Shown here in pieces: positions 2,900 through 53,333 of a stretch of 53,333 nucleotides of DNA. Every line of letters starts with the position of its first letter. The stretch's first letter is position 1. The position numbers and the translations under genes were made by a program. Location of the stretch: NCBI GenBank assembly GCA_030610655.1, contig JAUWRG010000004.1, positions 1 through 53,333 on the forward strand, read 5' to 3'. The DNA is from Dehalococcoidia bacterium (lineage in GTDB: Bacteria > Chloroflexota > Dehalococcoidia > E44-bin15). The notes below the pieces were generated by a model. It worked only from the letters and a program-made list of their open reading frames with translations, did no database searches and was not told the origin of the DNA.

Positions 2900-3682
2900 T
2901 CAATGAGGGGATATGGCGTTCCTTATTTGCTCTATGAATGCTTGTGCTGCCGAGGCAGGCTGCTGGCTGGTCTCCACAATCTCAATAATGCGACTGCCTA
3001 TAATCACCCCATCGGCTATATTGACTACTCGGCGAGCCTGCTCTGGGGTAGCGATGCCGAAGCCGACACAAAGTGGTTGAGATGTTATATCCCTCACCCT
3101 GGCTAGGAAGCTCTCCAGGTCGGCAGGCAGGGTCTCTCTGGCTCCAGTAATTCCTCTGAGCGATACTGCATAGATGAAGCCGCGCGATCTAGCAGCGACC
3201 AGACGGAGACGCTCCTCAGTGCTGGTGGGGGTGATTAGGTAGATGAGGTCCAGTTGATATCTTTCGGTTAGCCTTTCAAGTTCCACCCCTTCTTCGGGTG
3301 GCAGGTCAGGAATAATCAGCCCATCGACGCCTCCCTCTGAAGATGCAGCACAAAAAGCTTCCAATCCGTAGTGAAGTAGAGGGTTGAAGTAGCTCATGAG
3401 TATCAACGGCACATCGACCATTTGGTGCAGCTTGTGAGCAACCTCGATGCATAGCTTAGGGGTGACTCCTTGCTGAAGCGCTCCAAGGCTTGCTCTTTGA
3501 ATAGTGGTGCCATCGGATAGGGGGTCGGAGAAGGGAATACCCAGCTCGATCATGTCGCACCCACCTTCTACCAGGGCAGGCACCACTTGAAGTGTAGCCT
3601 CGATGCTGGGGTAGCCCACGGTTACATAGGCAATAAGAGCCTTATGCTGCGGCGTGGCAAAAACAGCGCCAATGCGGCTCAT
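2900..3682 (-). CDS. trpA: Tryptophan synthase alpha chain
   Basis: 260 aa; [25 protein letters not shown] signature. Confidence 0.97.
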
Positions 3683-4887
3683 AGTTGAACCCTCAGTGCC
3701 TCAACTACAATATGCATATCCTTATCGCCGCGCCCGCTCAGGTTCACCAGGATGGTGTGGTCTTTCGATAGCTGACGTGCGAGTGTGGCGGCGTAGTAGA
3801 TAGCATGAGCAGGCTCGAGGGCGGGTATGATACCCTCCTGTCGGCTCAGCAATTGGAACCCTTCAAGGGCTTCGTCATCGGTTACGGCAACATAGCTTGC
3901 CCGTCCACTCTCCTTATAGTAGCTGTGCTCGGGGCCGACGCCAGGGTAATCAAGCCCTGCCGAGATACTATGGGTCTGGCGAATCTGCCCCGCCTCATCC
4001 TGGAGGATGTAGGATTTTGTGCCATGAAGTACCCCGATGCTTCCTGCAGCCAGGCTGGCACCGTGCTTCCCCGTATCAAGGCCCAGCCCGGCGGCCTCAA
4101 CCCCAATCAACTGAACCTCATGGTCGTTAGCCAGGGGATGAAAAAGCCCCATGGCATTGCTGCCGCCGCCGACACAGGCTATGGCATAATCAGGCAGACG
4201 GCCGGTAGCTTCGATGGTCTGCTGACGCGCCTCCATTCCGATGACTGACTGGAAATTGCGCACCATCATGGGATAAGGGTGGGGACCAACGACGCTGCCC
4301 AGGAGGTAGTGCGTGGAATCGACATTGGTCACCCAGTCGCGGATTGCCTCGTTGATGGCGTCCTTAAGGGTTCGGCTGCCGCTTGAGACTGGTCGCACCT
4401 CGGCGCCAAGCAGCCTCATGCGGAAGACGTTTAGCGATTGGCGTTGAATATCCTCCTCTCCCATATACACGACGCACTCCTGTCCAAGCATGGCGCAAAC
4501 GGTGGCGGTGGCTACGCCATGCTGTCCTGCCCCCGTTTCGGCGACGACTCGTGTCTTTCCCATGCGCTCAGCCAGTAGGCCCTGCCCTACAGTGTTGTTA
4601 ATCTTATGGGCGCCAGTGTGGGCCAAGTCCTCCCTTTTGAGGTAGATCCTGGCACCATCACAATATTTGGTCAGCTTGGCTGCGAAGTAAAGGGGAGTGG
4701 GTCTGCCGACAAAGTCTCGGAGTAGTTCAGCCAGGCGCTGTTGAAATACTGCGTCCCGTTGCGCTTCCCGGTAGGACTTCTCCAGATCTTCCAGGGCGGA
4801 CATCAGGGTTTCTGGAGCAAAGCGGCCTCCGAATTTTCCGAAGTGGCCGAGGCCATCAGGTAATGGGGCTAATATCTTATCAGCCAT
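3679..4887 (-). CDS. trpB: Tryptophan synthase beta chain
   Basis: 402 aa; [19 protein letters not shown]-lysine motif. Confidence 0.98.
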
Positions 4888-5527
4888 CTTCCGCCCTCAC
4901 TGTTTGGATAAACCTCTCTATCTTGGAAGCGTCTTTTGCACCCTTGGTTTCCACGCCACTGGAGACATCTACTCCCCAGGGCTTGGTGATTTGGATTGCC
5001 TCTGCTACATTTTGCGGCGAGAGGCCACCGGCTATAATCACGGGGAATCTCTGGGAAACCTGCCTTGCCAGCCGCCAGTCGAAGGTCTGCCCGGTGCCAC
5101 CGTAGCTCCCTTCAACATGACAATCCAACAGGCAAATAAAACTTTCCCCCAGCAATCGTCGGCCACCACTTATTTCAGCGATGATATCCTCGCTGTCCTG
5201 CTGGCTTCGCACCCTTATAGCTTTAATAACCTGCTTCTCGATGTCCATCAAGTAATCCCAGGGCTCATCGCCGCTTAACTGTACCCAATCGAGCCCGCAG
5301 TATTCTGCGATATGGTTCACCTCAGAGGGGGGCATGTTGACGAAAACGCCGACAATTTGAGGGCGGGCTTTTAGTCCCTTAACTGCCAGAGCGATCTCCC
5401 GTGCCTTCTCGATACACACCTGGCGTTTCGATGGGGCAAAGACCATTCCTATGAAGTCCGCTCCTGCTTGCGTTGCCGCCAGAGCATGGGGAGTTTCAGT
5501 AATGCCACATATCTTTACCCTGGTCAT
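4880..5527 (-). CDS. trpF: Phosphoribosylanthranilate isomerase
   Basis: 215 aa; VKICGIT..., [29 protein letters not shown] motifs. Confidence 0.97.
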
Positions 5528-6300
5528 AGAAGTTCCTTCATTTTTCTTGCTACATCGCCAGCAGCAACCAGAGCCTCACCGACGAGAATGGCGTCAACTC
5601 CCCATTCCCTGAGCATCTGGACATCACCCCGATTCTCGATGCCGCTTTCGCTGACCACTATACGATCCGGTGGCACCAGGGGACGAAGCCGCTTTGTGGT
5701 GGCAAGGTCGATGGTAAAGGTCTTCAGGTCGCGATTGTTGATGCCGATGATGTGTGCTCCGCTCAAGAGGGCGCTCTCTAGCTCGGCCTGGTTATGAACC
5801 TCCACCAGGCATTGCATGCCGAGGTTATGGCTTAGCCAAAGCAGTTCTGTTAACTGCGCGCTGCTCAAAATGGCGATGATGAGGAGCAGGGCATCAGCGC
5901 CAAAAGCGCGAGATTCATGGATCTGATATGGGTCGAAGATGAAATCCTTTCTGAGCAGAGGGATTTTCCCCCCTTGCAGTTCCTCGCTAATGGTAGAAAG
6001 CTCCTCTAGGGTGCCCTGGAAGTATCTTTCCTCGGTTAGAACAGATATAGCAGCAGCGCCATTTTGGGCGTAGGTCTGGGCCAATTCTACCGCATCGAGG
6101 TCAGGGCGAATTTGTCCCCTTGATGGCGATGCTCTTTTGATTTCGGCGATGAGCTTGACGCCATCTCCCTGAAGGGCGGAGGCGAAATCCCGGGGCGGTG
6201 GCTTTCTTGAACTGAGCGCCTCCAATTCGGATACAGATACGCTCAGCTTGCTTCTTGCCAGTCCTTCCTTCTTTGACTTAACAATCTCGTCCAGTATCAT
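5524..6300 (-). CDS. trpC: Indole-3-glycerol phosphate synthase
   Basis: 258 aa; LIAEIKRASPSRG, LLRKDFIFDPYQI, GINNRDLKTF motifs. Confidence 0.97.
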   Translation of the reverse strand: MILDEIVKSKKEGLARSKLSVSVSELEALSSRKPPPRDFASALQGDGVKLIAEIKRASPSRGQIRPDLDAVELAQTYAQNGAAAISVLTEERYFQGTLEELSTISEELQGGKIPLLRKDFIFDPYQIHESRAFGADALLLIIAILSSAQLTELLWLSHNLGMQCLVEVHNQAELESALLSGAHIIGINNRDLKTFTIDLATTKRLRPLVPPDRIVVSESGIENRGDVQMLREWGVDAILVGEALVAAGDVARKMKELL

Positions 6301-6324
6301 TTTTCTGACCTTTGTGAAAAGGGC

Positions 6325-7335
6325 CTAGAGGCGTTGGCTGAGTGCAATAAGCTTATCAAGTATCTCCGACGCTTTGCCGCTGTCTATCGCTTGTGCGGCG
6401 ATTTTGATACCTTGCTCAAGGTTTTCCGCCTTATCGCCAGCTACTAGCGCTGCTGCGGCGTTTATCAGCACGATGTCGCGGTGTGGCCCGGTTTCGCCTG
6501 CCAGCACGCGGCGAATTATCGCGGCGCTCTCCTGAGGTGGCCCGCCTCTGAGGCTTGCCATGCTTACCCTACGGAAGCCAAACTCCTCCGGGTCTATAAG
6601 ATACCTTGTGATCTCGTCTTCCTTTAGCTCACAGACCGTGGTTTGCGCTCCCAGTGTAATCTCGTCCAGGCCATCCTCGCCATGAACCACCAGGGCGTGG
6701 TGGCAACCGAGGAGGCTGAGCACCTCAGCCATTTTCATCGTCAGTGCTCCGTCGGCTACCCCCAGCAATTGGGACTCGGCGCCAGCGGGGTTGGTCAGGG
6801 GGCCGAGGATATTGAAGACGGTGCGGATGCCGATCTCACGCCTGGGGGGTGAGGCGTACTTCATCGCGGGATGAAATATGGGGGCAAACATGAAGCCAAT
6901 GCCCACCTCATCGAGACACTTCTCGACCTCTTTAGCGCCCAAGTCTATCTTAACCCCCAAAGCATCGAGCACATCGGCGCTCCCGCAGCCGCTGCTCATC
7001 CCGCGATTGCCATGCTTGGCTACCTTGAGCTCGGCCCCGGCTACAACAAATGCGGCGGTAGTGGAGATGTTGAAGGTCTGCGATGCATCGCCCCCCGTAC
7101 CGCAGGTATCGACCACTGGTCCGGATGTGGCTACGGGGATGGCTTTCTCTCTCATCGCTCTTGCCATACCGGCGATCTCGTGCACCGTCTCCCCCTTGAG
7201 CCTCAACGCGGTAACGAAAGAGCCGAACTGGGCCGATGTGGCCTCGCCGTTCATTATCTCGTTCATCACCCCCGCCGCCTGCTCCAGGGTAAGCGAGTTT
7301 CCCGAAACCAAGGTGTCAATAGCTTCACGAATCAT
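6325..7335 (-). CDS. trpD: Anthranilate phosphoribosyltransferase
   Basis: 336 aa; DTCGTGGD and KHGNRGMSSGCGSADVLDALG motifs. Confidence 0.98.
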   Translation of the reverse strand: MIREAIDTLVSGNSLTLEQAAGVMNEIMNGEATSAQFGSFVTALRLKGETVHEIAGMARAMREKAIPVATSGPVVDTCGTGGDASQTFNISTTAAFVVAGAELKVAKHGNRGMSSGCGSADVLDALGVKIDLGAKEVEKCLDEVGIGFMFAPIFHPAMKYASPPRREIGIRTVFNILGPLTNPAGAESQLLGVADGALTMKMAEVLSLLGCHHALVVHGEDGLDEITLGAQTTVCELKEDEITRYLIDPEEFGFRRVSMASLRGGPPQESAAIIRRVLAGETGPHRDIVLINAAAALVAGDKAENLEQGIKIAAQAIDSGKASEILDKLIALSQRL

Positions 7336-7348
7336 TTTGGTTTGCTCC

Positions 7349-8005
7349 TTATTCCGAAAGTGGCCATATACTCTCTATAATCTTACTATCTTCGGTTTTA
7401 TCTAACTTGCGGTGCTTCAGTGGGCCTATAATCCATGAAGGCCCTTCTTTGTCCGCGGTTACCTCTCGCTTTGACTCAAAGCATCTGTTATATATATCTC
7501 TGTAATATGCTACCAAGAATCTCCGGTTGCCAATTTGTTGTAAGGATAATCCTCCGGCTTGCTTGCTATCTCCAATTTTAATGGTTCCAAAATCGCGTCC
7601 TCGAGTTTTTCCACCAATGGCCATATATGAATATACATCAGTCGCTGGTCCGACACCAATATTATCTAAAACACACCAAAATCCATAAGAGAATTCCTCT
7701 AACCGAGCGGCTAGTCCTTCTCTTATTTTTTCCTCCTCTAATACGTATCTCTCAATATCTATTACAGGACGAAATGAGTCATACCTTTGTTCCCTCGTCT
7801 CTTGAGCCATCTTTATGCTTGCATCGGCTTGCTGCCTTACTCTAGAGACGTAAACGGCTGTCAACAAGACCAGTATTATCGTAACCCAAACCTGCGCAAC
7901 AATACCGTGCTGTTCTACGAAGCCCGCCTTCAAAAAGGCAACCAGAGTAACAACAAACATTACACTCAAGAAAATGATGAGTTCAGTTTTCCGCATTTGC
8001 GTCAT
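7349..8005 (-). CDS. Hypothetical membrane-anchored protein inside the trp operon
   Basis: 218 aa; two N-terminal hydrophobic helices then a soluble domain; start overlaps the trpG stop, end lies 13 nt from the trpD start. Confidence 0.7.
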
Positions 8006-8571
8006 CCTCCTTTCCCCAGGAAATTTTTAAGTATATCCTTTCCCACCTCTGTCATGATGGATTCGGGGTGAAATTGCACTCCCTCCACTGGGTATTGTCG
8101 ATGCCTGAGCCCCATAATGATACCCTTTTCCGTCCAGGCAGTCACCTCCAGGCAGTCAGGGAGACCCTGTGGCATTACCACCAGGGAATGATAGCGAATC
8201 GCTGGGAAGGGACTGGGCAGCTCCTGAAGTACCCCCTGGCCATTGTGATGGATTAGCGAGGACTTGCCGTGCATGATCTCACTCGCCCGTTCCACCACCG
8301 CGCCGTAGCTGTAGCCGATGCACTGGTGGCCGAGGCAAACGCCGAGAATGGGGGTCTTAGGCCCAAAATGGCGAATGACATCGTTTGAGATGCCTGCACG
8401 GTCGGGAGTTCCCGGCCCTGGGGAGATCACGATGCGCTCAGGCGACATCTCCTCGATGTCAGCGATGCTGACCTTGTCATTGCGCAGTACCTGAACCTTT
8501 TCACCCAACTCGCTCAGGTACTGGAAGAGATTGTAGGTGAAGCTGTCATAGTTATCTATAAGTAGAAGCAT
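8002..8571 (-). CDS. trpG: Anthranilate synthase component II (glutamine amidotransferase)
   Basis: 189 aa; [24 protein letters not shown] class-I amidotransferase motifs. Confidence 0.96.
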
Positions 8572-10002
8572 TTATGCACTCTCCGCCTGTTCAATGGCTT
8601 TGACAAGAGCTTGAGCCTTATTCACGCTCTCTTCGTACTCACGCTCGGGGACGCTGTCGGCAACGATCCCGCCGCCTGCCTGTACAGAGGCGATACTATC
8701 GGCCATTACTATAGTGCGGATGGTTATCGCCGTATCGAGGTTGCCTGAGAAGCTGAAGTAGCCCACTGCCCCGGCATAGGGACCCCGCTTATCCCGCTCC
8801 AGTTCAGCGATGATCTCCATGGCGCGGACCTTGGGGGCACCCGATACAGTGCCGGCGGGAAAACATGCCCTCAGGGCATCGAACTGATTCAGACCGTGGC
8901 GAAGCTTCCCCTGAACATGCGACACCAGGTGCATTACATGCGAATAGCGCTCCACATCCATAATCTGAGTAACCTCAACTGTGCCTGGCTCTGAGACCCG
9001 ACCAATGTCATTGCGCCCAAGGTCGAGTAGCATGATGTGCTCAGCACGTTCCTTTTCATCATTCCGTAGTTCCTCCTCCAGGGCCAGGTCTTCGGCCAGA
9101 TTTGCTCCACGAGGGCGTGTTCCGGCGATGGGATGGGTTGCCACTATCCCATCCTCCACCCTCACCAGGAGCTCTGGCGAGGCGCCGATGATGTGACAGC
9201 CGTCCAGGTGAAGATAATACATATATGGTGATGGGTTTATACTTCTCAGTTCCCGATAGATTTGAAAGGGCTCGGCGGTGGTGGTTTTGCTAAGTCGCTG
9301 AGAAAGGACCACCTGAATAATCTCTCCAGCCTCAATATATTCTTTCGCTTGAGTAACGCTGGCTTCGAACTCAACCTTAGAGATGTTGGATACGATAGGG
9401 GAATAGGTGGCTGCTATCCTGGGGGCTTTTCTTCTCGCTTGCTGAATAGGTTGGCTCAGTCTCTCTACCGAAGCATCGATCCGTTCCACCGCTCTGCGGT
9501 ATGCCTCCTCTACATCGCCTTCCAGATAAGCGTGGCTGACGACCTTAATCTTGTGGGTCAAGTGGTCGAAAACGAGAACGTTATCGGCAAACATGAAGAG
9601 GGATTCCGGCAAGCTCAGGGGGTCGGAATCGGGCGAAGGTAACTCTTCAAAGTGTCTCACCGTCTCATAAGCGAGATAGCCCACCGCTCCGCCATGAAAG
9701 CGAGGCAGGTCGGGTAGTAATACTAACTTGTATTTGTCTAGCTCATTCTGCACCGCAAGCAAGGGGTCGGGTGTCTCACCGCTTGACTTGAGAACGAGAT
9801 AGGGTTCAGAGCCAATAAAGCTATAGCGTGCCAGTCGCTCCCCGCCCTCGACGCTCTCCAGGAGGAAAGAATAAGGATGGCGGGCAACCTTCAGGTAGGC
9901 GGAAACCGGCGTTTCCAGGTCAGCTACTATCTCACGATAAACTGGCACCAGATTGCCGTATCTCTTCAGTTTTCGTACCTCGTCAAGCGATGGGCAGTAC
10001 AT
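8572..10002 (-). CDS. trpE: Anthranilate synthase component I
   Basis: 476 aa; chorismate-binding motifs IAGTRPRG, FPAGTVSGAPKVRAMEII, GGGIVADSVPEREYEE. Confidence 0.97.
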   Translation of the reverse strand: MYCPSLDEVRKLKRYGNLVPVYREIVADLETPVSAYLKVARHPYSFLLESVEGGERLARYSFIGSEPYLVLKSSGETPDPLLAVQNELDKYKLVLLPDLPRFHGGAVGYLAYETVRHFEELPSPDSDPLSLPESLFMFADNVLVFDHLTHKIKVVSHAYLEGDVEEAYRRAVERIDASVERLSQPIQQARRKAPRIAATYSPIVSNISKVEFEASVTQAKEYIEAGEIIQVVLSQRLSKTTTAEPFQIYRELRSINPSPYMYYLHLDGCHIIGASPELLVRVEDGIVATHPIAGTRPRGANLAEDLALEEELRNDEKERAEHIMLLDLGRNDIGRVSEPGTVEVTQIMDVERYSHVMHLVSHVQGKLRHGLNQFDALRACFPAGTVSGAPKVRAMEIIAELERDKRGPYAGAVGYFSFSGNLDTAITIRTIVMADSIASVQAGGGIVADSVPEREYEESVNKAQALVKAIEQAESA

Positions 10003-23325: not shown

Positions 23326-23364
23326 TTAATACCCTTCTAGCCAACATGTCGGACGACAGATTTG

Positions 23365-23436
23365 CGCCCCTGGAGGGAGTCGAACCCTCGCCCCCAGCTC
23401 CGGAGGCTGGTGCTCTATCCTCTGAGCTACAGGGGC
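23365..23436 (-). tRNA. tRNA-Arg (anticodon CCG), copy 1
   Basis: Cloverleaf: GCCCCTG acceptor, loop CTCCGGA with anticodon CCG, T-arm GAGGG-TTCGACT-CCCTC, CAGGGGC. Confidence 0.95.
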
Positions 23437-25445: not shown

Positions 25446-25506
25446 AAATCTCAGTGAGATCGCTCATCTAATATCCTTCTAGCCATCGCGGCGGACAACG
25501 GATTTG
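25446..25506 (-). pseudogene. Duplicated stub of the porG 5' end
   Basis: aaatctcagtgagatcgctcat matches the porG start region at 23305-23325; encodes MSDLTEI before diverging. Confidence 0.7.
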
Positions 25507-25578
25507 CGCCCCTGGAGGGACTCGAACTCTCGCCCCCAGCTCCGGAGGCTGGTGCTCTATCCTCTGAGCTACAGGGGC
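25507..25578 (-). tRNA. tRNA-Arg (CCG), copy 2, possibly degenerate
   Basis: Near-identical to copy 1, but the T-stem is GAGAG/CCCTC (one A-C mismatch). Confidence 0.8.
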
Positions 25579-42428: not shown

Positions 42429-43633
42429 CCAAGCTTAAGATACATCAGGCCAAAACTGTTTTCCCCTTAAACTTCATTGTAACCTTCCTCGGCTTTCTCG
42501 ATACCCATCTTCTCATCCCGATAGTGGCTCTATATGCCTGGGACCTCGGTGCCGGTGTGGGGATGATCGGGTTGATCATAGGACTATACTCGATAGCCAA
42601 CACCCCGGCAAACATACTCTTCGGACGGGTGGTCGATAGGGTGGGCTACAAAAAACCCCTGATTATTGGTCTTCTGGGAGATGCTATCGCCATGTGTTGT
42701 TATGCCATATGTCGCTTGCCATTCCAGCTAGCCTTAGTACGCTTGTTCCACGGCATTAGTGGCGGCATTGTAGGTCCCGCCACCATGTCGGTGACTGCTG
42801 AGCATGCTGCTTATGGTCAGAAAGGTAGGGCAATGGGCTTCTATGGGATGGCGATGGGGATGGCTACGCTGGTAGGCTATGGCCTCAGTGGGGTTATGGC
42901 CTCTCGCTTGGGCTACAATTTCATATTCTACTTCGGATCAGGGATGCTTCTTTTGGGAGTTTTGTTAGCTGTTGTGATGCCAAAAGCGAAGGCCCCTGCT
43001 ACAGCAATGAAAACGTCTCTTAGCCAGGACCTGAAGAAGATAGGGGGGTTACTTCGCAGAAGGGGTTTGGTAACCTCATATTGCTCAATATTCGCCCAGT
43101 ACTTCGCCTTTGGAGGCGTTGTTACGCTGTTACCCCTATATGTTAAAGGTCTGGGCATGGAGGTGTTCCATGTGGGAATGTTGCTTGCGACCTTTACCAT
43201 TGTTTTTATATTGCTCCAGTTCCCCAGCGGGGCGATCAGTGACCGGATAGGACGGCTAATACCCGTTACCTTGGGCTTAGGTGTCTGCATTGTTTCCCTG
43301 GTGGTGATGCCTGCTCTGGGAAGCTTTGGTCTTCTAGCTGTAATCATGGCGTTGTATGGGGCCGCCTCTGCCCTGCTGTTTCCATCGATATCTGCGCTAG
43401 TGGCGGATCACACTACGCTAGACGAGCGTGGCAGAGCAACCGGCATATTCCACTCACTCCTTACCGCTGGTGTTGCTACAGGTGCACCGTTGATGGGCTG
43501 GGTGGCGCATTTTGTCGGGATTGAGTTGGGATTGGCCCTATGCTCTGGTGCTGCTGCCTTGGCTCTAATCATAGCCTGGGTGGACCTGGGGAAAAGGAAC
43601 CCTGGGCAAGACCCGCAGGGCGAGCGAGGGTAA
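42425..43633 (+). CDS. MFS transporter
   Basis: 402 aa, about 12 TM segments; FGRVVDRVGYKKPL MFS loop motif. Confidence 0.93.
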   Translation: MTKLKIHQAKTVFPLNFIVTFLGFLDTHLLIPIVALYAWDLGAGVGMIGLIIGLYSIANTPANILFGRVVDRVGYKKPLIIGLLGDAIAMCCYAICRLPFQLALVRLFHGISGGIVGPATMSVTAEHAAYGQKGRAMGFYGMAMGMATLVGYGLSGVMASRLGYNFIFYFGSGMLLLGVLLAVVMPKAKAPATAMKTSLSQDLKKIGGLLRRRGLVTSYCSIFAQYFAFGGVVTLLPLYVKGLGMEVFHVGMLLATFTIVFILLQFPSGAISDRIGRLIPVTLGLGVCIVSLVVMPALGSFGLLAVIMALYGAASALLFPSISALVADHTTLDERGRATGIFHSLLTAGVATGAPLMGWVAHFVGIELGLALCSGAAALALIIAWVDLGKRNPGQDPQGERG

Positions 43634-44289: not shown

Positions 44290-44671
44290 TCCGGCTCCCC
44301 GAAGCAGGATTAGAACTCACATCACCCGCTTGATGCGTGGGTTTGGAGTGATGTCTGCTCTTGGAACCTTTGCTCTTCTAGCTGTAATCATGGCGTTGTA
44401 TGGGGCAGCCTATGCCCTGCTGTTTCCATCGATATCTGCTCTAGTGGCGGATCACACTACGCCAGACGAGCGTGGCAGAGCAACTGGCATTTTCCATTCG
44501 CTGCTTACTGCCGGAGTTGCCGTTGGTGCGCCGGTAATAGGGTGGGTGGCTCATTTTGTCGGGATTGAGTTGGGTTTGGCCCTTTGCTCTTGTGCTGCTG
44601 CCTTGGCTCTGATTGTAGCCTGGGTGGACTTGGGAAAACGGAATCCTGTGCAGGACCCGCCATGCGGGTGA
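44290..44671 (+). pseudogene. C-terminal fragment of an MFS transporter paralog (copy 2)
   Basis: 113-aa ORF highly similar to the C-terminal quarter of the MFS gene at 42425-43633. Confidence 0.9.
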
Positions 44672-44811: not shown

Positions 44812-44824
44812 GTTTAGGCTTTCC

Positions 44825-44907
44825 ACACAACGTTCCCGGCATAAAAGAAGTTTTTGCAAAGCAAAAATTTGGGTGAGCGATAGCGAATCTTTTATGCTGT
44901 GTTAGGC
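44825..44907 (-). other. attC-like recombination site B (83 nt)
   Basis: Minus strand: inverse core GCCTAAC, stem GCATAAAAGA/TCTTTTATGC (10 bp), core GTTGTGT; 13 nt after the methylase stop. Confidence 0.75.
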
Positions 44908-44919
44908 GATGCGGCGGCA

Positions 44920-47124
44920 TCATAATAATGGCAGTTGAATGGGACGAGAACCCTCGGTCCTTTTCTTTACACTCTCAAAATTAGCGGTTACAAGGTTATC
45001 AAAATGTGTTAATGCCTCGAAAAACCATTCACGCGTGACCTTCTGAGTATCCCAAACTGCGCTTACCGCTTTCAGTAGTTCACCCATGAAATACAGAAAT
45101 AACTTATTCTTACTGTTGTTGTACTCCTCTATAGGTAAGTTGTCCTTCGCGCGCTGCGCTGCTTCATCTAACGACAGGGAAAAAGGCTCGGACATTACCG
45201 CCCTTTTCTGACAGACCAACACCAAATCCATATCTAACGTTTGCTTGTTACGAACGTGTGGATTGACCTTGTATTCGCTCATTACAGGAAATGAGTCGGT
45301 AACACAAAAGCCGCTTCCCGCAACAGCAGCAAGCATAGTCCACCACGCTTGCCATTTAGTGTGGTGAAACGTGAAGATAAGCTGCCCTTCATCTTTTAAT
45401 ACTCGTTCGCATTCTTTGAACACGGCTGTCAGCAGACTGCGATAGCCTTCCTCGTCCTTGCTCATGCCGGCATTCACAATGGCCTCTTGCTCCGTTGGCA
45501 CACAGTCAGTTGTGAAATATGGATGCTTATTGAGTAACATCCGCAGCCACACGTAGAAGAAATTGGATAACTCTGAGTAGTGAATGTTATCGAAGTAAGG
45601 TGGGTCGGTAATTACGAAGTCGACGGACTTATCGGGTACAGCGGGCATGCTTGACGAATCGCCGCAGAGCAGCAACGTGCCATGTTGCACCTGCTTAAGT
45701 TCATCAAAAGAAGAGACAAAGTTAGCGGCTATCCTCTCGCTATTAGCATAGACAGTTTTAACCCTGTTGCGAAAGTCTTTGAATTTATCGAAAGGATGTT
45801 GACAATACTGCTTGGCACGAACGTAGCGACCATAGCAGTTGACGAACGTCCCTGCTCCTTCTTCCGAAACACCCCATACTGCGTTTTCAACGGGAGTCGT
45901 TGTCAACGGCATTGCGTGGTAATTGAAAAGGTGATGCAGTTTCCGGTTGGGATAGTTGTAGGGGGTCATCATGTTGTTGTACTCAAGAGTGTTGGAGAAG
46001 ACGGTGATAAAAGCGTTACGATACACTTCTTCAGGAATCGCGCGAATCGCATGAATCAAGTAGTTGAAAGCAAGCAGTTGGCGGGCGTTGAACACCTCGT
46101 AGTAGTAGCGGTAGTTATGGAGACGCCAGCGAACAGACGACGCACCTTCCAAAATCGGCTGCGTGGGAAACATCAACCGATGTTTTGACTCCTCAAAGTT
46201 TTTCTCAATAGCGTCAATCTTTGCCAAGTCATCAGTATCAGGTGACTTATAAAGTCGGTCTTTGCAGCGTGGACACCAGTATTCGATAGCGACAAGTTTT
46301 TCGCGAAGCCGTTGCCCCGTCTTCATCGTTTGAATGAGAGAGATTCTATCCTTCTTACAATGGGGGCAGCTATAGTAACCCCGGTCATAGGTTCCCGCCC
46401 ATGGGTCGAAGGTATGGCCACATTGCTTGCAGGAACAAGTGCCCTCCCCATACCATTCATTCAACGCATAACATTGCGGACAGAAGGCAACGGCAGGATT
46501 GCTGCGGGATGCAGGCTTGTTCCGGCTACGCCCCTCATTAAGCAAAGTACGCTTGAACAGGTAAACATCTCTGCCGCAGTGCGGGCATTCCACGAAACGG
46601 ACCCAGAAGGCGTAAAGCCCATCAGCTTGCGTGACCCCACAGTGTCGGCAAACAGTTCGATAAAGGGACTTGATTTGTTCCTCTGCGGTTTGTTTCAATC
46701 GGTGGAAATAGGTATCCAGTTGCTCCAAGTCCATAGGCTTCAGCGTTTCACTCACAATCCAGAACGAAACAGGGTTGATGTCACACCCTACAACTTTCGC
46801 GCCAAGTCGATTCGCCTCGACTAAGATTGTTCCGCCACCCATGAAGGGATCAAGAATAATAACGTCGCCTAAGTCATGGTCTTGGAAGTAGTTGCTTCGC
46901 TCAGAGAGGTTACGGTTTTCGGCTGAGCCGAACAGCTCAACGCCTAAGTTACGATGAGTAGCTAACAGGATGATAGAGCGGAATAAGGCACCAGGACGAC
47001 GCGCCCACCACTTGTGCAAGGAGTAAACGGGACGGTAATATTGCCGCTTGCCCGTTTCTTCCTGGGCTATCTTGCTAATAATATCTTCAACGTAGGGGTT
47101 CGGAATGAATTTCATCTTGTTCAT
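44920..47124 (-). CDS. Zn-ribbon DNA methylase (COG1743/DUF1156-like adenine/cytosine-N4 type)
   Basis: Start MNKMKFIPNPYVEDII at 47124; LHKWWARRPGALFRSIIL, DPFMGGGTILVEANRLGA, CXXC pairs, DPPYFDNIHYSELSNFFYVWLR. Confidence 0.88.
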   Translation of the reverse strand: MNKMKFIPNPYVEDIISKIAQEETGKRQYYRPVYSLHKWWARRPGALFRSIILLATHRNLGVELFGSAENRNLSERSNYFQDHDLGDVIILDPFMGGGTILVEANRLGAKVVGCDINPVSFWIVSETLKPMDLEQLDTYFHRLKQTAEEQIKSLYRTVCRHCGVTQADGLYAFWVRFVECPHCGRDVYLFKRTLLNEGRSRNKPASRSNPAVAFCPQCYALNEWYGEGTCSCKQCGHTFDPWAGTYDRGYYSCPHCKKDRISLIQTMKTGQRLREKLVAIEYWCPRCKDRLYKSPDTDDLAKIDAIEKNFEESKHRLMFPTQPILEGASSVRWRLHNYRYYYEVFNARQLLAFNYLIHAIRAIPEEVYRNAFITVFSNTLEYNNMMTPYNYPNRKLHHLFNYHAMPLTTTPVENAVWGVSEEGAGTFVNCYGRYVRAKQYCQHPFDKFKDFRNRVKTVYANSERIAANFVSSFDELKQVQHGTLLLCGDSSSMPAVPDKSVDFVITDPPYFDNIHYSELSNFFYVWLRMLLNKHPYFTTDCVPTEQEAIVNAGMSKDEEGYRSLLTAVFKECERVLKDEGQLIFTFHHTKWQAWWTMLAAVAGSGFCVTDSFPVMSEYKVNPHVRNKQTLDMDLVLVCQKRAVMSEPFSLSLDEAAQRAKDNLPIEEYNNSKNKLFLYFMGELLKAVSAVWDTQKVTREWFFEALTHFDNLVTANFESVKKRTEGSRPIQLPLL

Positions 47125-47125
47125 G

Positions 47126-48229
47126 CTAATCAGCGCACCAGAAGGGCGATGAGGATTTTGAAACGCGGTCATATTCTCGCTCTTTGTAGAATCCTTCGAA
47201 CGTCTTAGTGTAGGAGAACTCATTTTGGAACTCTTGCCGCAAACTCTCCAATAGGTCTTTACCTAATTGGTCTGCAAACTTGCCTCGCAAGGCTTCTTCA
47301 TACCAACGTACCAGGTCAGTCTGGGTAATTATCCCCCGAATACGTTGTCCCAACTGTTGGCAAACTCGCTCTATAGTCTCTCTTTCCGCGTCCTTGCAGA
47401 CAATTACAATCCAATCTGCTGCAACTTCCTCGCAGATGTCCTCAGCGAGTTCATAAGTTAAGCTCAAATGCTTGACTTGGACAACTGGTCCGAAGTTCGC
47501 CCAAATGTCCAATCCTCGATCTGCAGCGTTCGTCACACCCGCCCGATACAGCATTGCATTCAGACAAACAGTTGGGTTCTGAGAATCTATGCCTAAAAGT
47601 AGGCGAGTGAAGTCCTCAAATGCTCGCAGCAAGTCAATTTGGTCGGGATCGGCAGCCAGTGTCACTTTGACTCTCAGGTGTCTGATAAGTGTGTTGAATA
47701 ATGCATACACCACAATTTCATACGCCTTGTCAATGCTCCGTCTGATGCCTCTCTCGTATTCAAACTCTGATAGAAAATCAGCAAGATTGAACTCGTCAAC
47801 TGTCGCCTTAGCCAGCAATTCATCCAATCGCAGTATACGCTGCTGCCTCTTCCGAAACTGCTGGTAAATGTAACGCTCGACAACGCCTTCATACTTATTG
47901 TTTTCTTCTGCAAGCAGAGCCAGCGTGGCCCGTGGTATAGCGTTTGCTTCAAACAAGTTGTCTTGGTATTTCTGTGAGGACGTGGAAACCTGGTTAATCA
48001 GCAACCGCGTTACGCTGTCACGCCAACGCTTAGATGGGTTACGGTACATTTCAAGGTTGTTGCGAATATCGTTGATACTTAGCTCCCCACGGCGCACTCG
48101 ATAAAGAATCTCGGCCACTTGAATCGGCTTGTAGAGAGCGACTCGCTGTTTCTGGATTAGTCTATCCAGTGTCACTTTTGCGACTATCAGATTTTTATTC
48201 ACATCTATCGCCTTCCTTGTTCCTGACAT
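47126..48229 (-). CDS. HaeII-family type II restriction endonuclease
   Basis: 367 aa; VSTSSQKYQDNLFEANAIP, RSIDKAYEIVVYALF, GVTNAADRGLDIWANFGPVVQVKHLSL and IVIVCKDAE blocks resemble HaeII. Confidence 0.8.
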   Translation of the reverse strand: MSGTRKAIDVNKNLIVAKVTLDRLIQKQRVALYKPIQVAEILYRVRRGELSINDIRNNLEMYRNPSKRWRDSVTRLLINQVSTSSQKYQDNLFEANAIPRATLALLAEENNKYEGVVERYIYQQFRKRQQRILRLDELLAKATVDEFNLADFLSEFEYERGIRRSIDKAYEIVVYALFNTLIRHLRVKVTLAADPDQIDLLRAFEDFTRLLLGIDSQNPTVCLNAMLYRAGVTNAADRGLDIWANFGPVVQVKHLSLTYELAEDICEEVAADWIVIVCKDAERETIERVCQQLGQRIRGIITQTDLVRWYEEALRGKFADQLGKDLLESLRQEFQNEFSYTKTFEGFYKEREYDRVSKSSSPFWCAD

Positions 48230-48249
48230 TTAATATTAGCCGCCGTTTC

Positions 48250-48337
48250 ACCTAACGGTCCGAGCGTATCTGAAGTTCCCCAAAGGGGAATTTTGGCGTA
48301 GTGCTGAAGGCACGAAGCCAGATACGCTCTGTTATAC
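48250..48337 (-). other. attC-like recombination site A (88 nt)
   Basis: Minus strand: inverse core GTATAAC, stem GAGCGTATCTG/CAGATACGCTC (11 bp), core GTTAGGT; lies between the 451-aa ORF stop and the endonuclease start. Confidence 0.8.
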
Positions 48338-48353
48338 GACGTGACCTTTGTTA

Positions 48354-49709
48354 TCATATCCTGATCCTTGCAGAGATTGTGTTAGTAAGTAAATCCAATG
48401 CATTTAAGAGTGTAGACCTTTCTGATATGGGATATTCCTCGATCATTTGGTGCAACGTCTTCTCTTTGTTCTTTAAATATAAGTCATAATTATTCATTTC
48501 TTTTCTACTTCTAAACCATTGACTTAAATTTATAAAAAACTCGCGCGACGTTAAAGGTAAGCTCGATGAAGTGGCGATAGTAGAAACATAAGGAACAAAT
48601 CCAGCTACACCAAGCCCCAAAGACAATGTACTTTTTCGGAGTCCCTTGGTTGTTTCTTTGTGTTTTTTCTTCATAAATTCTGGTAATTCTTGTTTGAAAA
48701 CCTCTTCAAATGTCTTAGAAATCTGCTCCAAAATCTCCAAAGGTTTTTCTATATCATATGCCACTGCATCAGAGTTGGTCTCTGAATCCCTTATAAATTG
48801 AACGCTTGTTTTAATTAAGTTATCGTATTTTCTACAGAATGATATATTCTCTAACGGTTTTCTTAAGTAATATATGTCCTCGAATGATAATATATCAAGT
48901 AACTCAACAGGGAGAGTGTTTCTATAAAGAGTTTCGAAGGCCAATTCGAAAAATATTTTCAAGAACACTTGTGTATCTGATACCATTACTCTATGCTCAG
49001 AGAAGTCTGTAAGAGAGTAATCTATGTAATTCTCTTGAGGTAGTGCACTCTCACAATTTACAACTCTTGCACCGGACATATGATAAACAAGATTAACAAA
49101 ATTTAAGAGAGTTTTCTGCTCTCTTGATGACCATGTTGAGATACTTTTAAGGATCAATTCTCGGGTTAGAATATCATTCTTTTCTATTTCACTAATCAGA
49201 AAGTGTAATTTCCCTTTAGGTAAATCTGTTAAGTTCCTTCTAATGACTGAATTATCGTTATTTAATGCTTTTAATAGATTTTCCCTGAACCAAGCAGCAT
49301 TTTCTATTAATTCCCAATCTACAACGTTATTCACGTGATCTCTGTAAAAATCTTTCATATTTTCTTTCAAATAACTCTTAATTCCAAGATCTTGGGCGAG
49401 CGGATATTCCCCAGGGGTTCTTTCTTCCAAGTAATCCGTTATGTGTTCTATATCTCTCCGTAAAGCAGGTAAGATCATATTTTCAGTTAGTAAGATTGGA
49501 TTATCTTTGAAAAGATTATAAGCAAACTCATGAGTTAGATGTGAGGCAGCACAGATAACAGTATTTTTAGTTAGAAGGATAATCTTCAATCTCCTCTCTA
49601 CTTCTCTTCTATATGCCTCTTTACGATGTTTAAATCTCACAATATTATAATCGAAATCAGTAAAATATGCTCTGGGCCCTAGGAAATTAATAGGGTCAAT
49701 TCTTTTCAT
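48354..49709 (-). CDS. Orphan 451-aa cassette protein of unknown function
   Basis: Long AT-rich ORF; no family recognised; hydrophobic segment LSLGLGVAGFVPYVSTIATSSSLP near the C-terminus. Confidence 0.75.
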   Translation of the reverse strand: MKRIDPINFLGPRAYFTDFDYNIVRFKHRKEAYRREVERRLKIILLTKNTVICAASHLTHEFAYNLFKDNPILLTENMILPALRRDIEHITDYLEERTPGEYPLAQDLGIKSYLKENMKDFYRDHVNNVVDWELIENAAWFRENLLKALNNDNSVIRRNLTDLPKGKLHFLISEIEKNDILTRELILKSISTWSSREQKTLLNFVNLVYHMSGARVVNCESALPQENYIDYSLTDFSEHRVMVSDTQVFLKIFFELAFETLYRNTLPVELLDILSFEDIYYLRKPLENISFCRKYDNLIKTSVQFIRDSETNSDAVAYDIEKPLEILEQISKTFEEVFKQELPEFMKKKHKETTKGLRKSTLSLGLGVAGFVPYVSTIATSSSLPLTSREFFINLSQWFRSRKEMNNYDLYLKNKEKTLHQMIEEYPISERSTLLNALDLLTNTISARIRI

Positions 49710-49750
49710 TATTAATCACTTCCCCTCAGATATATGCTAATGGTCATGGC

Positions 49751-49795
49751 GTATAACTATGGGTAAACGAACCTACTTCGTTTATCCCCAACTCT
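49751..49795 (-). other. Candidate attI-like hairpin site 2, junction with the 451-aa cassette
   Basis: Minus strand GAGTTGGGGATAAACGAAGTAGGTTCGTTTACCCATA|GTTATAC; inverted repeat; homologous to 51793-51838. Confidence 0.55.
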
Positions 49796-49829
49796 GGGTG
49801 AACCAAATCTTGCCATTCTTTATTGACCC

Positions 49830-50312
49830 TTACGGTTTTTGAAATGTATCCAGTGGACTGCGAATACGACCAATGTCTCGTTCGCTCACATGAGTGTATA
49901 TTTCTGTAGTTTTTGGGCTCTTATGCCCCAGCAACTCCTGAATATAGCGTAAGTCTGTGCCACCCTCAAGTAGATGAGTGGCAAAACTGTGCCGCAGGGT
50001 GTGGACGGTGCGGGTGGTAAGATGACTATCGGTCTTTGGTCCGGGGAAGATCCAGATCTTTGGATGGCAAGTTTCCCAATATTGGTGTAAAGCCTCTAAA
50101 AAACCTTTTATTAAGTCTTGGGCAGTCAAAATATTTTTAGCCCTGAATAAATAAGGATTTTTCTGCTTAAGAATTTTATCTAATTCAATTGTAGTTGAAA
50201 CATATTCAAATCGTTTTTGATGAAAAATGGAAATATGCTTTTCAACATATTCCCTTACTTCATTTAGATTCAATTTCATATTCCGCCTTTGGTTCAAATA
50301 ATAAATATTCAC
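49830..50312 (-). pseudogene. Chimeric ORF: N-terminus of a PmeII-like restriction endonuclease fused to a tyrosine recombinase C-terminus
   Basis: [16 protein letters not shown]...[22 protein letters not shown], then [46 protein letters not shown]...; lacks 18 aa present in the paralog at 51872. Confidence 0.8.
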
Positions 50313-51120
50313 ACTCTTTTATTTCAGACTTCACCATTTCATAATATTCTGAGACAATATCAATTCCTATTGAATTTCTTCTTAGTCTATTGGCAACTCT
50401 TAATGTTGTGCCCGAACCCATAAAGGGATCTAATACAGTATCCCCATCTTCTGTAAACAGTTTTATAAACCATTCTGGTAAACTTTCTGGGAAAACAGCA
50501 CTATGGTTTCTATTACTACATTCCGTTGCCAAATGTAATACATTTGTAGGATAAACTTTGTCACGCTTTAATCAATTTGAAATATTTTTCCCAAAGCCAC
50601 TTTTTGACCTTGATTCAAACCTTATTTTATCCTTTTCACTTAAGTTTTTAAATCTATCTTCCACCCAGTCACCAACAGGTAGCATAGCTGCTTCTTGGAA
50701 CATTTTAAACTTTTTAGTTTTATTGAACTGTATCAATCTTTCCCAAGCATCACGAAAACGATTTGGCCACTTTCCAGGATAACAATTCTTTTTATGCCAG
50801 ATAAATTCTTCTGTCCATAACCAGCCCTGTTTTCTTAATGCTAAAATTAGTTCTAAGACATAGGTATGTCGCTCACCTTTTTCTGCTTTTTCCTTAATAT
50901 TTAATATAAATGTACCTCCTGGCTTTAATACCCTTAAAAATTGTTCACTTCTTGATAGAAACCAATCAACATACTCTTCAGGTTTAATCCCACCATACGT
51001 ATGAACACGTCTATCTGCGTAAGGCGGGGATGTAAATATTAAATCAACACTATCATTCTCAAAATCTTTCAAAATATCTTTACAATCACCCAAGAATATC
51101 TGTGTTTCAATCTTTTTCAT
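50260..51120 (-). pseudogene. DNA methyltransferase interrupted by an in-frame TGA
   Basis: 50572-51120 (TSPPYADRRVHTYGG) and 50260-50532 (DPFMGSGTTLRVANRL) are in the same frame, joined by SN*LKRDKVYPTNVLHLATE. Confidence 0.88.
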
Positions 51121-51128
51121 AGTAATTC

Positions 51129-51326
51129 CTATTGAACATCAAAAGCTTCGTTTATTTTACATTCAATATCTTCTATTTCAAAGTTAAATTTTCTTCTATT
51201 ATCAATTGATGAAATATCTTGAATATCGCCCGTGAATAACTCTGAATATCCTTTTGCTTTCTTTTTGTCTTCTGCTTTTATTTTCACAATATATGATTTT
51301 GTTAAAACAACTTCAAATGTTTTCAT
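51129..51326 (-). CDS. Small hypothetical protein in the R-M module
   Basis: MKTFEVVLTKSYIVKIKAEDKKKAKGYSELFTGDIQD..., preceded by AAGGAG. Confidence 0.5.
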   Translation of the reverse strand: MKTFEVVLTKSYIVKIKAEDKKKAKGYSELFTGDIQDISSIDNRRKFNFEIEDIECKINEAFDVQ

Positions 51327-51720
51327 AATGTTCTCCTTTCTTGAATTCATCGGTATGAGAATCAAGAAAATATTCTACCAATTGAGGAATAAATTTACCT
51401 TTGTACGGATGTAACCTATGAACATGTTTTGTTCTTTCCGATTCTTTGTATTCTACAAATGACAAATGCCAATTAAGGTCTTCACCTAATTTCTTTTTCC
51501 ACTGTTTTTCTTTGTCATAAGAGTCGTAATATTCTTTTAATTCTTCAATATTTATCAAGGGATTCCCATTACTTCCATACTTTCTTATTCTTCCGTATTG
51601 CAGCAAATACGAAATATTAGAAATTGTAACTCTACGATTTAAATATTGCGAAGCCCAAACACTTGCTTCTCTTAAATTGATTAGTTTCCCTTCTTCTTCA
51701 AAAAATGTTGATTGATACAT
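51313..51720 (-). pseudogene. N-terminal fragment of a second DNA methyltransferase
   Basis: LNWHLSFVEYKESERTKHVHRLHPYKGKFIPQLVEYFLDSHTDEFKK then stops; no catalytic motifs follow. Confidence 0.7.
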
Positions 51721-51792
51721 ATCTGATTACCTTCGATTAATTTTTATATATAACATACCTTGATATTTGCTTTTCCCCCTGCCCGCAATTGC

Positions 51793-51838
51793 AGATAACT
51801 ATGGATAACCGAACTTATTTCGTTTATCCCCAACTCGG
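51793..51838 (-). other. Candidate attI-like hairpin site 1 downstream of the recombinase
   Basis: Minus strand GAGTTGGGGATAAACGAAATAAGTTCGGTTATCCATA|GTTATCT; same hairpin as 49751-49795. Confidence 0.55.
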
Positions 51839-51871
51839 GGTGAACCAAATCTTGCCATTCTTTATTGGCCC

Positions 51872-52973
51872 TTACAGTTTTTGAAATGTATCCAGTGCAC
51901 TGCGAATACGACCAATGTCTCGTTCGCTCACATGATTGTATATTTCTGTAGTTTTTGGGCTCTTATGCCCCAGCAACTCCTGAATATAGCGTAAGTCTGT
52001 GCCACCCTCAAGTAGATGAGTGGCAAAACTGTGCCGCAGGGTGTGGACAGTAATATGTTTTGGGATTCCTGCCTTCTGACAAGCATCCTCCAGAACCTTT
52101 TCCACGGTGCGGGTGGTAAGATGACTATCGGTCTTTGGCCCGGGGAAGAGCCAGATCTTCGGATGGCAAGTTTGCCAATATTGGTGTAAAGCCTCTAACG
52201 CCACACTGGAAAGGAGCGTATAGCGGCCTTTCCGCCCCTTGGCACCTCGAATATGAATCATATGTCGTTCCTCGTCAATGTCTTCAACCCTTAACCGAAC
52301 CACCTCACTTACCCTCAAACCTGCAGAATAGGTCAACATTAGGATTGCCCTATGCTTGAGATTGGTTACCACACCAAGAAGGCGCATCACATCATCCCGA
52401 CCGAGGACAACAGGTAGTTTGGTCTCCTTTCTGGGTCGAGGCAGATTGCCAACTACCTTTGGTGTCTGCAATACACATTCATACAAGAACTTGGCCGCAT
52501 TAACTGCTTGATTGTGATATGATCTCGACACCTTCTCATCATCAATGAGATGAAGCATATACTTCCGAATATCCCCCTCATCCAGTTGTCGAGGGTCTTT
52601 CATAAAATGGCAGACATAACGATTGATATGGTGTAGATAAGCCTTTCGAGTCTTTTGGCTGTATCCTCTCAATTTCAGCTCTTTCTCTGTATCGCTCAGA
52701 ACTTCTTTCCTTCGCCTTTCAAACTCTGAGGATTGCAGGAGAGGGTCTATTTCTATTTGTTGCCCGGCAAAAACCGATAGGATTTTTTTCTAGAATTCCA
52801 TCAGAACGGGGAGCACTCCAATACTTTTCCTTTGGATGCCATCTGCTACCTTCAATGGCCTTGATTTTCGCTACATGCGCAGGGTCATAGGGGAATGTAA
52901 TCGTTACTCTCCCAGCAATTCCACTGCTGATTTCTACATTCGCTCTCATTCCTGCCTCTATTATACCCAGCAT
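51872..52973 (-). CDS. Tyrosine recombinase with N-terminal extension, split by a single-nt frameshift at an A7 run
   Basis: C-part 51872-52672 ([39 protein letters not shown]); N-part 52719-52973 (VTITFPYDPAHVAKIKAIEGSRWHPKEKYW). Removing one A at 52783-52789 joins them. Confidence 0.85.
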
Positions 52974-53034: not shown

Positions 53035-53333
53035 TCGCCAATGAAGATTCGAGCTCACATTATCCGTTTCAGCCTTGGGTTTGGGGTGATGCCTGCTCTT
53101 GGAAGCTTTGTTCTTCTAGCTGTAATCATGGCGTTGTATGGGGCGGCCTATGCCCTGCTGTTTCCATCGATATCTGCTCTAGTGGCGGATCACACTACGC
53201 CAGACGAGCGTGGCAGAGCAACTGGCATTTCCCATTCGCTGCTTACTGCCGGAGTTGCCGTTGGTGCGCCGGTAATAGGGTGGGTGGCTCATTTTGTCGG
53301 GATTGAGTTGGGATTGGCCCTATGTTCCTGCGC
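53035..53333 (+). pseudogene. MFS C-terminal fragment (copy 3), running off the window
   Basis: Near-identical to 44320-44640 over its visible length. Confidence 0.9.

Follow-up and report, generated by a model that had tools for sequence, protein, structure and literature searches.

A probable small and decaying integron of a second kind in a Dehalococcoidia genome, with an IntI-related recombinase that lacks I2

We analyzed a stretch of 53,333 nucleotides (nt) from a Dehalococcoidia bacterium of the phylum Chloroflexota (assembly GCA_030610655.1, contig JAUWRG010000004.1, positions 1 to 53,333; the whole stretch is called the window). The window is likely to contain a small integron of a second kind, itself probably in decay. 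It comprises a tyrosine recombinase that is related to the integron integrase IntI and lacks the I2 insertion, an attI-like site, and cassettes that carry defense genes and end in attC-like sites. A first-pass annotation, made from the sequence alone, had proposed two consecutive integron-like cassettes. This proposal was borne out: recombinase and attI adjoin the array, a different cassette stands behind the same attI elsewhere, a third site was found in the host genome, and a covariance model built from unrelated loci recovers the sites. The recombinase and attI copies, which lie directly upstream of the cassettes (49757-52672), were absent from that annotation.

Two cassettes end in sites that match their own starts

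Both cassettes and both attC-like sites are on the minus strand of the window.

48256..49756 (-), cassette A, start G|TTATACGCC with the G at 49757, extending to the G|TT of the following cassette
48354..49709 (-), gene of cassette A, 451 amino acids (aa)
48251..48340 (-), attC-like site of cassette A, perfect 11-bp stem, spacers of 1 and 5 bases (basis: R2 covariance model, see below, and fold)
44825..48255 (-), cassette B, start G|TTAGGTGA with the G at 48256, running to its own attC
47126..48229 (-), HaeII-type restriction endonuclease of cassette B (PF09554, 3.1e-114)
44920..47223 (-), DNA methylase of cassette B (DUF1156-like), partner of the endonuclease (PF01555, 3.1e-17; PADLOC methylase families)
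44824..44909 (-), attC-like site of cassette B, perfect 10-bp stem (basis: R2 at 15.6 bits, match to own start, and fold)

The inverse core of site A, CGTATAAC, is complementary to the start of cassette A at 8/8 bases, and that of site B, TCGCCTAAC, to the start of cassette B at 8/9 bases, just as the first-pass annotation had claimed. Its perfect inner stems of 10 to 11 bp were also recovered (11 bp in A, 10 bp in B). Two further claims held for site A only. The sites were said to lie 13 to 17 nt past a stop codon, which fits A (~13 bases) and not B (~10 bases). A gene was said to follow closely behind each site; site A does lead into cassette B, whereas the array ends at site B. No cassette lies beyond it, an open reading frame (ORF) of 82 aa at this place is probably spurious, and the next feature is a duplicated transporter 3' end. 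Folding of the bottom strands, a check that the annotation had suggested, agreed with its reading: in all three cassettes folded, the circle-form bottom strand was more stable than the top strand (-25.9 vs -21.0, -17.0 vs -13.9, and -16.3 vs -13.4 kcal/mol).

The coordinates of the methylase count from its first start codon, and the true start may be closer to 47123. The 451-aa protein of cassette A had no family match in Pfam, NCBIfam or PADLOC.

An attI-like site adjoins the recombinase

Upstream of cassettes A and B, and on the same strand, we found the recombinase, a partial second copy of its 3' end, two attI-like sites and the remains of a further cassette.

52673..52973 (-), coding region of an N-terminal extension, shifted out of frame by a single additional A in the homopolymer run at 52780-52799, compared with the related copy L014 described below
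51872..52672 (-), tyrosine recombinase, ORF of 266 aa with core-binding and catalytic domains (PF00589, 6.6e-41)
51799..51825 (-), attI-like site, copy 1, AAACGAAATAAGTTCGGTTATCCATA|G (basis: alignment of five copies)
50103..51798 (-), truncated cassette 0, start G|TTATCTGCAATTG; holds the beginning of an EcoO109I-type endonuclease gene together with a type II methylase region
49830..50102 (-), 3' end of the recombinase in a second, incomplete copy, identity 94-96%
49757..49783 (-), attI-like site, copy 2, directly ahead of cassette A

Both recombinase copies finish in the same ~80 bases, followed by G|TTAT. The two copies agree at 55/60 positions before G|TT and at 5/5 in GTTAT; beyond it, identity falls to background (19/55). 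The attI-like site is an imperfect inverted repeat, AAACGAA...TTCGGTT, with the predicted crossover at G|TT. Its core, TTCGKTTAYYYWWAGTTA, occurs three times in the host genome (twice in the window, once on contig C47), and a search of 196 further genomes of the class gave no match to the pattern. Judged from the alignment of the five copies, an attI site is present beside the recombinase and insertion would take place at G|TT.

In cassette 0, the endonuclease (PF14511, 3.4e-16) is cut off after its beginning and fused to the second recombinase copy, and the methylase region (PADLOC MTase_II) is interrupted by a stop codon.

The recombinase is related to IntI and lacks I2

When aligned to IntI1, the window recombinase has the complete active site R-K-H-R-H-Y, as do the relatives L014, L019, L020, L024, L161, L164 and L166. 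The I2 insertion is missing: 17 residues stand in the alignment where IntI1 has 54 (187-240). The distance between the motifs flanking this region has a median of 100 residues in true IntI proteins (n=30, from the phylum) and is at most 59 residues in the I2-less proteins. The integron integrase model TIGR02249 gave 224.3 and 234.5 bits, below its curated cut-off of 265, with the match split into two stretches, and the XerA-type profile NF040815 gave 223.7 and 232.6 bits, above its cut-off of 220. The host genome carries two other, separate Xer-like genes and has no IntI above the cut-off.

The predicted structure of the L014 protein (predicted local distance difference test score 84.5) has as its closest solved structure the Vibrio integron integrase VchIntIA (2A3V; E 3.7e-18), and the phmmer match to 2A3V leaves out IntI4 residues 171-218. 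In a tree, the I2-less proteins group together on a single branch (support 90/77), separate from both IntI (100/100) and the Xer proteins of the genome itself. An approximately unbiased test of IntI and the I2-less group as sister groups gave p 0.28. Canonical IntI as the enzyme was rejected in view of the missing I2, the TIGR02249 cut-off and the attC models.

The extra N-terminal part is also present in L014, L015, L161, L164 and L166, and in L014 it is predicted to fold as beta-alpha-beta-beta-alpha. It had no Pfam match; a HARP-like identity was considered and dropped, as Pfam gave it no support.

Different cassettes stand behind the same attI in Dehalococcoidia

A second Dehalococcoidia metagenome-assembled genome (MAG), L014, has an intact recombinase that is 91% identical to that of the window. 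It is followed by the same attI and then by a different cassette, which carries a DUF3795 gene and ends in an attC. The inverse core of this attC, TCATATAAC, pairs at 9/9 bases with the start of its own cassette, GTTATATGA. Homology between the window and L014 stops at the G|TT junction. The same recombinase and attI thus occur with other genes in a related genome; a search of related genomes for the same sites around other genes was among the checks suggested in the first-pass annotation. It had also named two findings that would speak against cassettes: the absence of a significant attC model score, and repeats that stay fixed and never exchange the genes between them. A score was indeed absent with the classical model (see below), whereas the second is contradicted.

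Contig C47 of the host genome (L011:2900-9000) has an attI core that leads into the cassette start GTTATACGCCATG, with a gene for a PIN toxin. Farther on, an attC lies behind an ATPase/TOPRIM-like gene pair that resembles the HEC-01 candidate defense system; the start of this cassette, GTTATCTGC, and its inverse core, GTAGATAAC, match at 8/9 bases. C47 is a second cassette region, without a recombinase, and is interleaved with repeated 3'-end copies of a tldD gene.

Outside the class, an Actinobacteria MAG (L017:10000-10200) shows a truncated recombinase end, a near-identical attI, AAACGAAGTAGTTCGGTTATTTTAAG|TTA, and an arsenic-type methyltransferase gene.

I2-less relatives adjoin chained cassette arrays

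In the Bacteroidia MAG KatS3mg027 (L015), three cassettes lie past the recombinase, with own-start matches of 10, 8 and 9 bases, and every cassette begins where the preceding site ends. In L020, six cassettes in a row match at 9/9 bases. A chain of 8-9/9 matches was also found on plasmid pls1 of Pontibacter kalidii XAAS-72, a complete record, and similar sites are present on Rufibacter and Chryseobacterium plasmids.

A search of a viral collection returned 166 relatives, 80 of which were kept; the pair counts cover these 80 and the host loci. The IMG/VR contigs are viral by prediction, and one of them (L024) was checked by its flanks, which match phage families. Non-adjacent site pairs served as the null for chained sites, since attC is nearly palindromic and the reverse strand is therefore unsuitable. 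Among adjacent site pairs, 137 of 532 had a start and own inverse core that agreed in at least 5/6 bases past GTT, compared with 193 of 8796 non-adjacent pairs (Fisher p ~1e-86; related arrays are not independent, so p-values overstate). By the same measure, L014 matches at 6/6 and C47 at 5/6. At control loci of other tyrosine recombinases (n=11), 2 of 32 adjacent pairs matched. The judgment of the first-pass annotation that chance was unlikely can thus be sharpened: chance is excluded.

With arrays oriented by their unequal spacers, 36 of 42 calls placed the array on the recombinase's far side. Among these 36, 31 were on the opposite strand, which is the layout of classical integrons, and 5 were on the same strand (L015, L016, L019, L020, L086). 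The window and L014, whose sites are unchained there, also have the same-strand layout.

L024 (~3200-9800) and about 30 more viral loci (e.g., L025, L042, L063, L070, L079) contain long arrays of small unknown genes. These arrays adjoin short I2-less recombinases on the opposite strand, and the cassette starts match their own sites at 9/9 bases. The attC closest to the phage recombinase in L024 seems to have tRNA-like sequence in its loop (~9760-9960).

In Acinetobacter and on related plasmids, tet(X3) is located directly behind a truncated I2-less recombinase that is ~50% identical to L014 (L159:2967-4988, L160:6046-8067, L165:6046-8067). A possible cassette start, GTTATGTGCC, is present at these loci; an attC was searched for downstream of tet(X3), and none was found.

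Two types of attC

Two covariance models were used: R1, built from 13 class 1 attC sites, and R2, built from 36 sites of the new type, none of them from Dehalococcoidia. For R2, the variable attC centers were swapped for NNNN, because MAFFT misaligns this part in full-length new sites. R1 found 23 attC at the canonical IntI loci of the phylum, with up to 51 bits. On the window site it gave noise (5.1 bits, E 6.4), and at 11 further I2-less loci one weak hit. Conversely, R2 found nothing at class 1 and canonical IntI loci; it scored window site A at 29.4 bits (E 2.6e-4), C47 at 31.3 and L020 at 22.6, and more weakly L014 at 16.0 and window site B at 15.6 bits (E 0.74). These E-values are from the default pipeline; a run with filters off on 8.7 kb returned neither window site, probably through a length limit. 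The attC model check suggested in the first-pass annotation thus failed with the classical model and succeeded with R2 for site A. We attribute the missing classical score, despite real cassettes, to a different type of attC that is matched to the I2-less recombinase.

The stems of the new type covary: both sides changed in 155 cells vs 56 in shuffles, in training sites picked by a stem detector, which inflates such statistics. With one detector, a one-sided bulge among the eight outermost L-stem pairs was found in 28/31 canonical sites vs 15/126 at I2-less loci. Extrahelical bases are missing in window sites A and B. Unequal spacers are common to the new sites and the canonical attC of the phylum. 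I2 is described in the literature as recognizing the extrahelical bases of attC, and both are held to have coevolved (PMC4792948, PMC7790495). Since both are missing here, enzyme and site lack the matching feature.

Flanks of the element

The integron lies between direct copies of a neighboring transporter gene's 3' end, and the C47 region is likewise flanked by tldD ends.

44308..44660 (+), transporter 3'-end copy, left flank, 94% identical over 276 bp to 53046-53321 and 88% identical to 43304-43616
53046..53321 (+), transporter 3'-end copy, right flank; the contig ends at 53333

The 3' ends of genes thus seem to be duplicated at these insertions. Elsewhere in the window, two tRNA-Arg (CCG) genes (23364-23436 and 25506-25578) lie in a 133-bp repeat with 91% identity.

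How the element may work, and other explanations

From the arrangement of sequences described above, we infer that the recombinase acts on these attI and attC sites. It would bind double-stranded attI just behind its own gene. Cassettes with defense genes terminate in attC, and in an excised circle the ends of the attC would pair fully (R''/R'). The bottom strand would then fold into a hairpin, and this folded single strand would be the substrate that the recombinase joins to attI at G|TT. New cassettes would enter beside the recombinase, so that the array grows away from it. Because I2 and the extrahelical bases are missing, orientation and strand choice are likely set by the unequal spacers (1-2 vs 5 bases) and not by I2 reading extrahelical bases. 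The N-terminal extension may aid recognition. As cassettes of the window type directly follow the recombinase gene on its strand, read-through may express them.

Several points weigh against this interpretation. IntI1 loses its activity when I2 is deleted (cited in PMC7790495); an I2-less enzyme must therefore contact its DNA differently. These copies may be dead, given that the extension of the window recombinase carries a frameshift and L015 contains a stop codon. With R2, window site B reaches just 15.6 bits. On the Bacteroidota plasmids R2 gave no convincing hit, and the sites there therefore rest on the chain matches. The stem statistics are inflated by the choice of the R2 training sites, and recombination at these loci is something we infer. 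The extra A in the homopolymer, the truncated cassette 0 and its broken methylase look like a decaying element, or partly like assembly error.

Three other explanations were considered. The sites could belong to an Xer-like system that works on double strands, comparable to pdif modules, with exchange of both strands and a hairpin geometry that is a by-product of inverted binding sites. The XerA-type profile scores above its cut-off, and the bulge-free stems resemble a duplex, a point also made for the CTX phage site (PMC4792948). The attC sites, however, share no fixed duplex sequence beyond AACA...GTT, and their stems covary while the sequence changes. They also retain loops of 20-100 bases between the arms, their unequal spacers agree with canonical attC, and folding is biased to the bottom strand. 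We consider such a system unlikely, though the best placed of the three.

Still less probable is that a canonical IntI once built the cassettes as an ordinary cluster of attC sites and that the I2-less recombinase is a bystander. Canonical IntI is present in 31/301 genomes of the phylum, and attC clusters without an integrase are common (PMC9024848). A bystander would nevertheless hardly have attI abutting its gene in two genomes, or stand beside arrays of a single polarity at dozens of unrelated loci. Moreover, the host genome has no IntI above the cut-off, and the classical attC model scores the canonical loci of the phylum and not these sites. Finally, chance palindromes or terminators beside recombinases can practically be dismissed: single hairpins are common, site B is weak alone and a few adjacent pairs match in the control loci, but chance is refuted by chained matches of 8-9/9 bases over up to six cassettes and by the excess of matches in adjacent over non-adjacent pairs, even if related arrays are not independent.

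Comparison with known integrons

An integron of a second kind, defined by an I2-less recombinase and bulge-poor attC, thus remains our preferred interpretation of the window, and from sequence comparison the same kind would also exist on Bacteroidota plasmids and in large phages. Whether it is a separate lineage that never had I2 we see as evenly balanced; if so, capture of folded attC arose before or independently of I2 and extrahelical bases, and would still be at work in Dehalococcoidia, in plasmids of Bacteroidota and in large phages with long cassette arrays. I2 has been called necessary for cassette capture and is said to be found in no other protein, and its coevolution with attC has been called a chicken-and-egg paradox for which no intermediate is available (PMC7790495, PMC4792948). 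If our reading is true, a working I2-less integron with attC mostly free of I2-read bases would provide the missing comparison and make the coevolution question testable. Our literature search, outside which lay preprints and most subscription journals, found no paper linking I2-less recombinases to attC arrays. IntegronFinder relies on the extra domain to recognize IntI and would therefore list such integrons, at best, as attC clusters that lack an integrase. Their cargo includes the defense systems described here, many small unknown genes in viral contigs, and tet(X3) in Acinetobacter behind a relative of the recombinase.

Other systems share single traits with the present one. The integron-like subgroup of simple tyrosine recombinases (PMC8138268) has insertion-less members, which the part of that paper considered here does not tie to attI, attC or cassette arrays. 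Phage genomes are known to carry attC arrays, including three complete phage integrons found with IntegronFinder, all with canonical IntI (PMC9892861), whereas the recombinases of the viral arrays described here lack I2. An unusual intI orientation, in common with the window, is also seen in Spirochaete integrons whose intI is reversed (mentioned in PMC9668308); these are IntI integrons by the definition of that paper.

The closest comparison is with the IntI integrons, both class 1 and sedentary chromosomal (VchIntIA, 2A3V). They have the same catalytic residues, an attI with G|TT and tandem attC cassettes. Likewise, the start of each cassette is complementary to its own inverse core, the spacers are unequal, and the array is directed away from the integrase. 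In contrast, the present system lacks I2 and mostly lacks extrahelical bases in the outer stem, and its attC is not scored by the classical model. It has an N-terminal extension, and at loci of the host type the recombinase is on the strand of its array.

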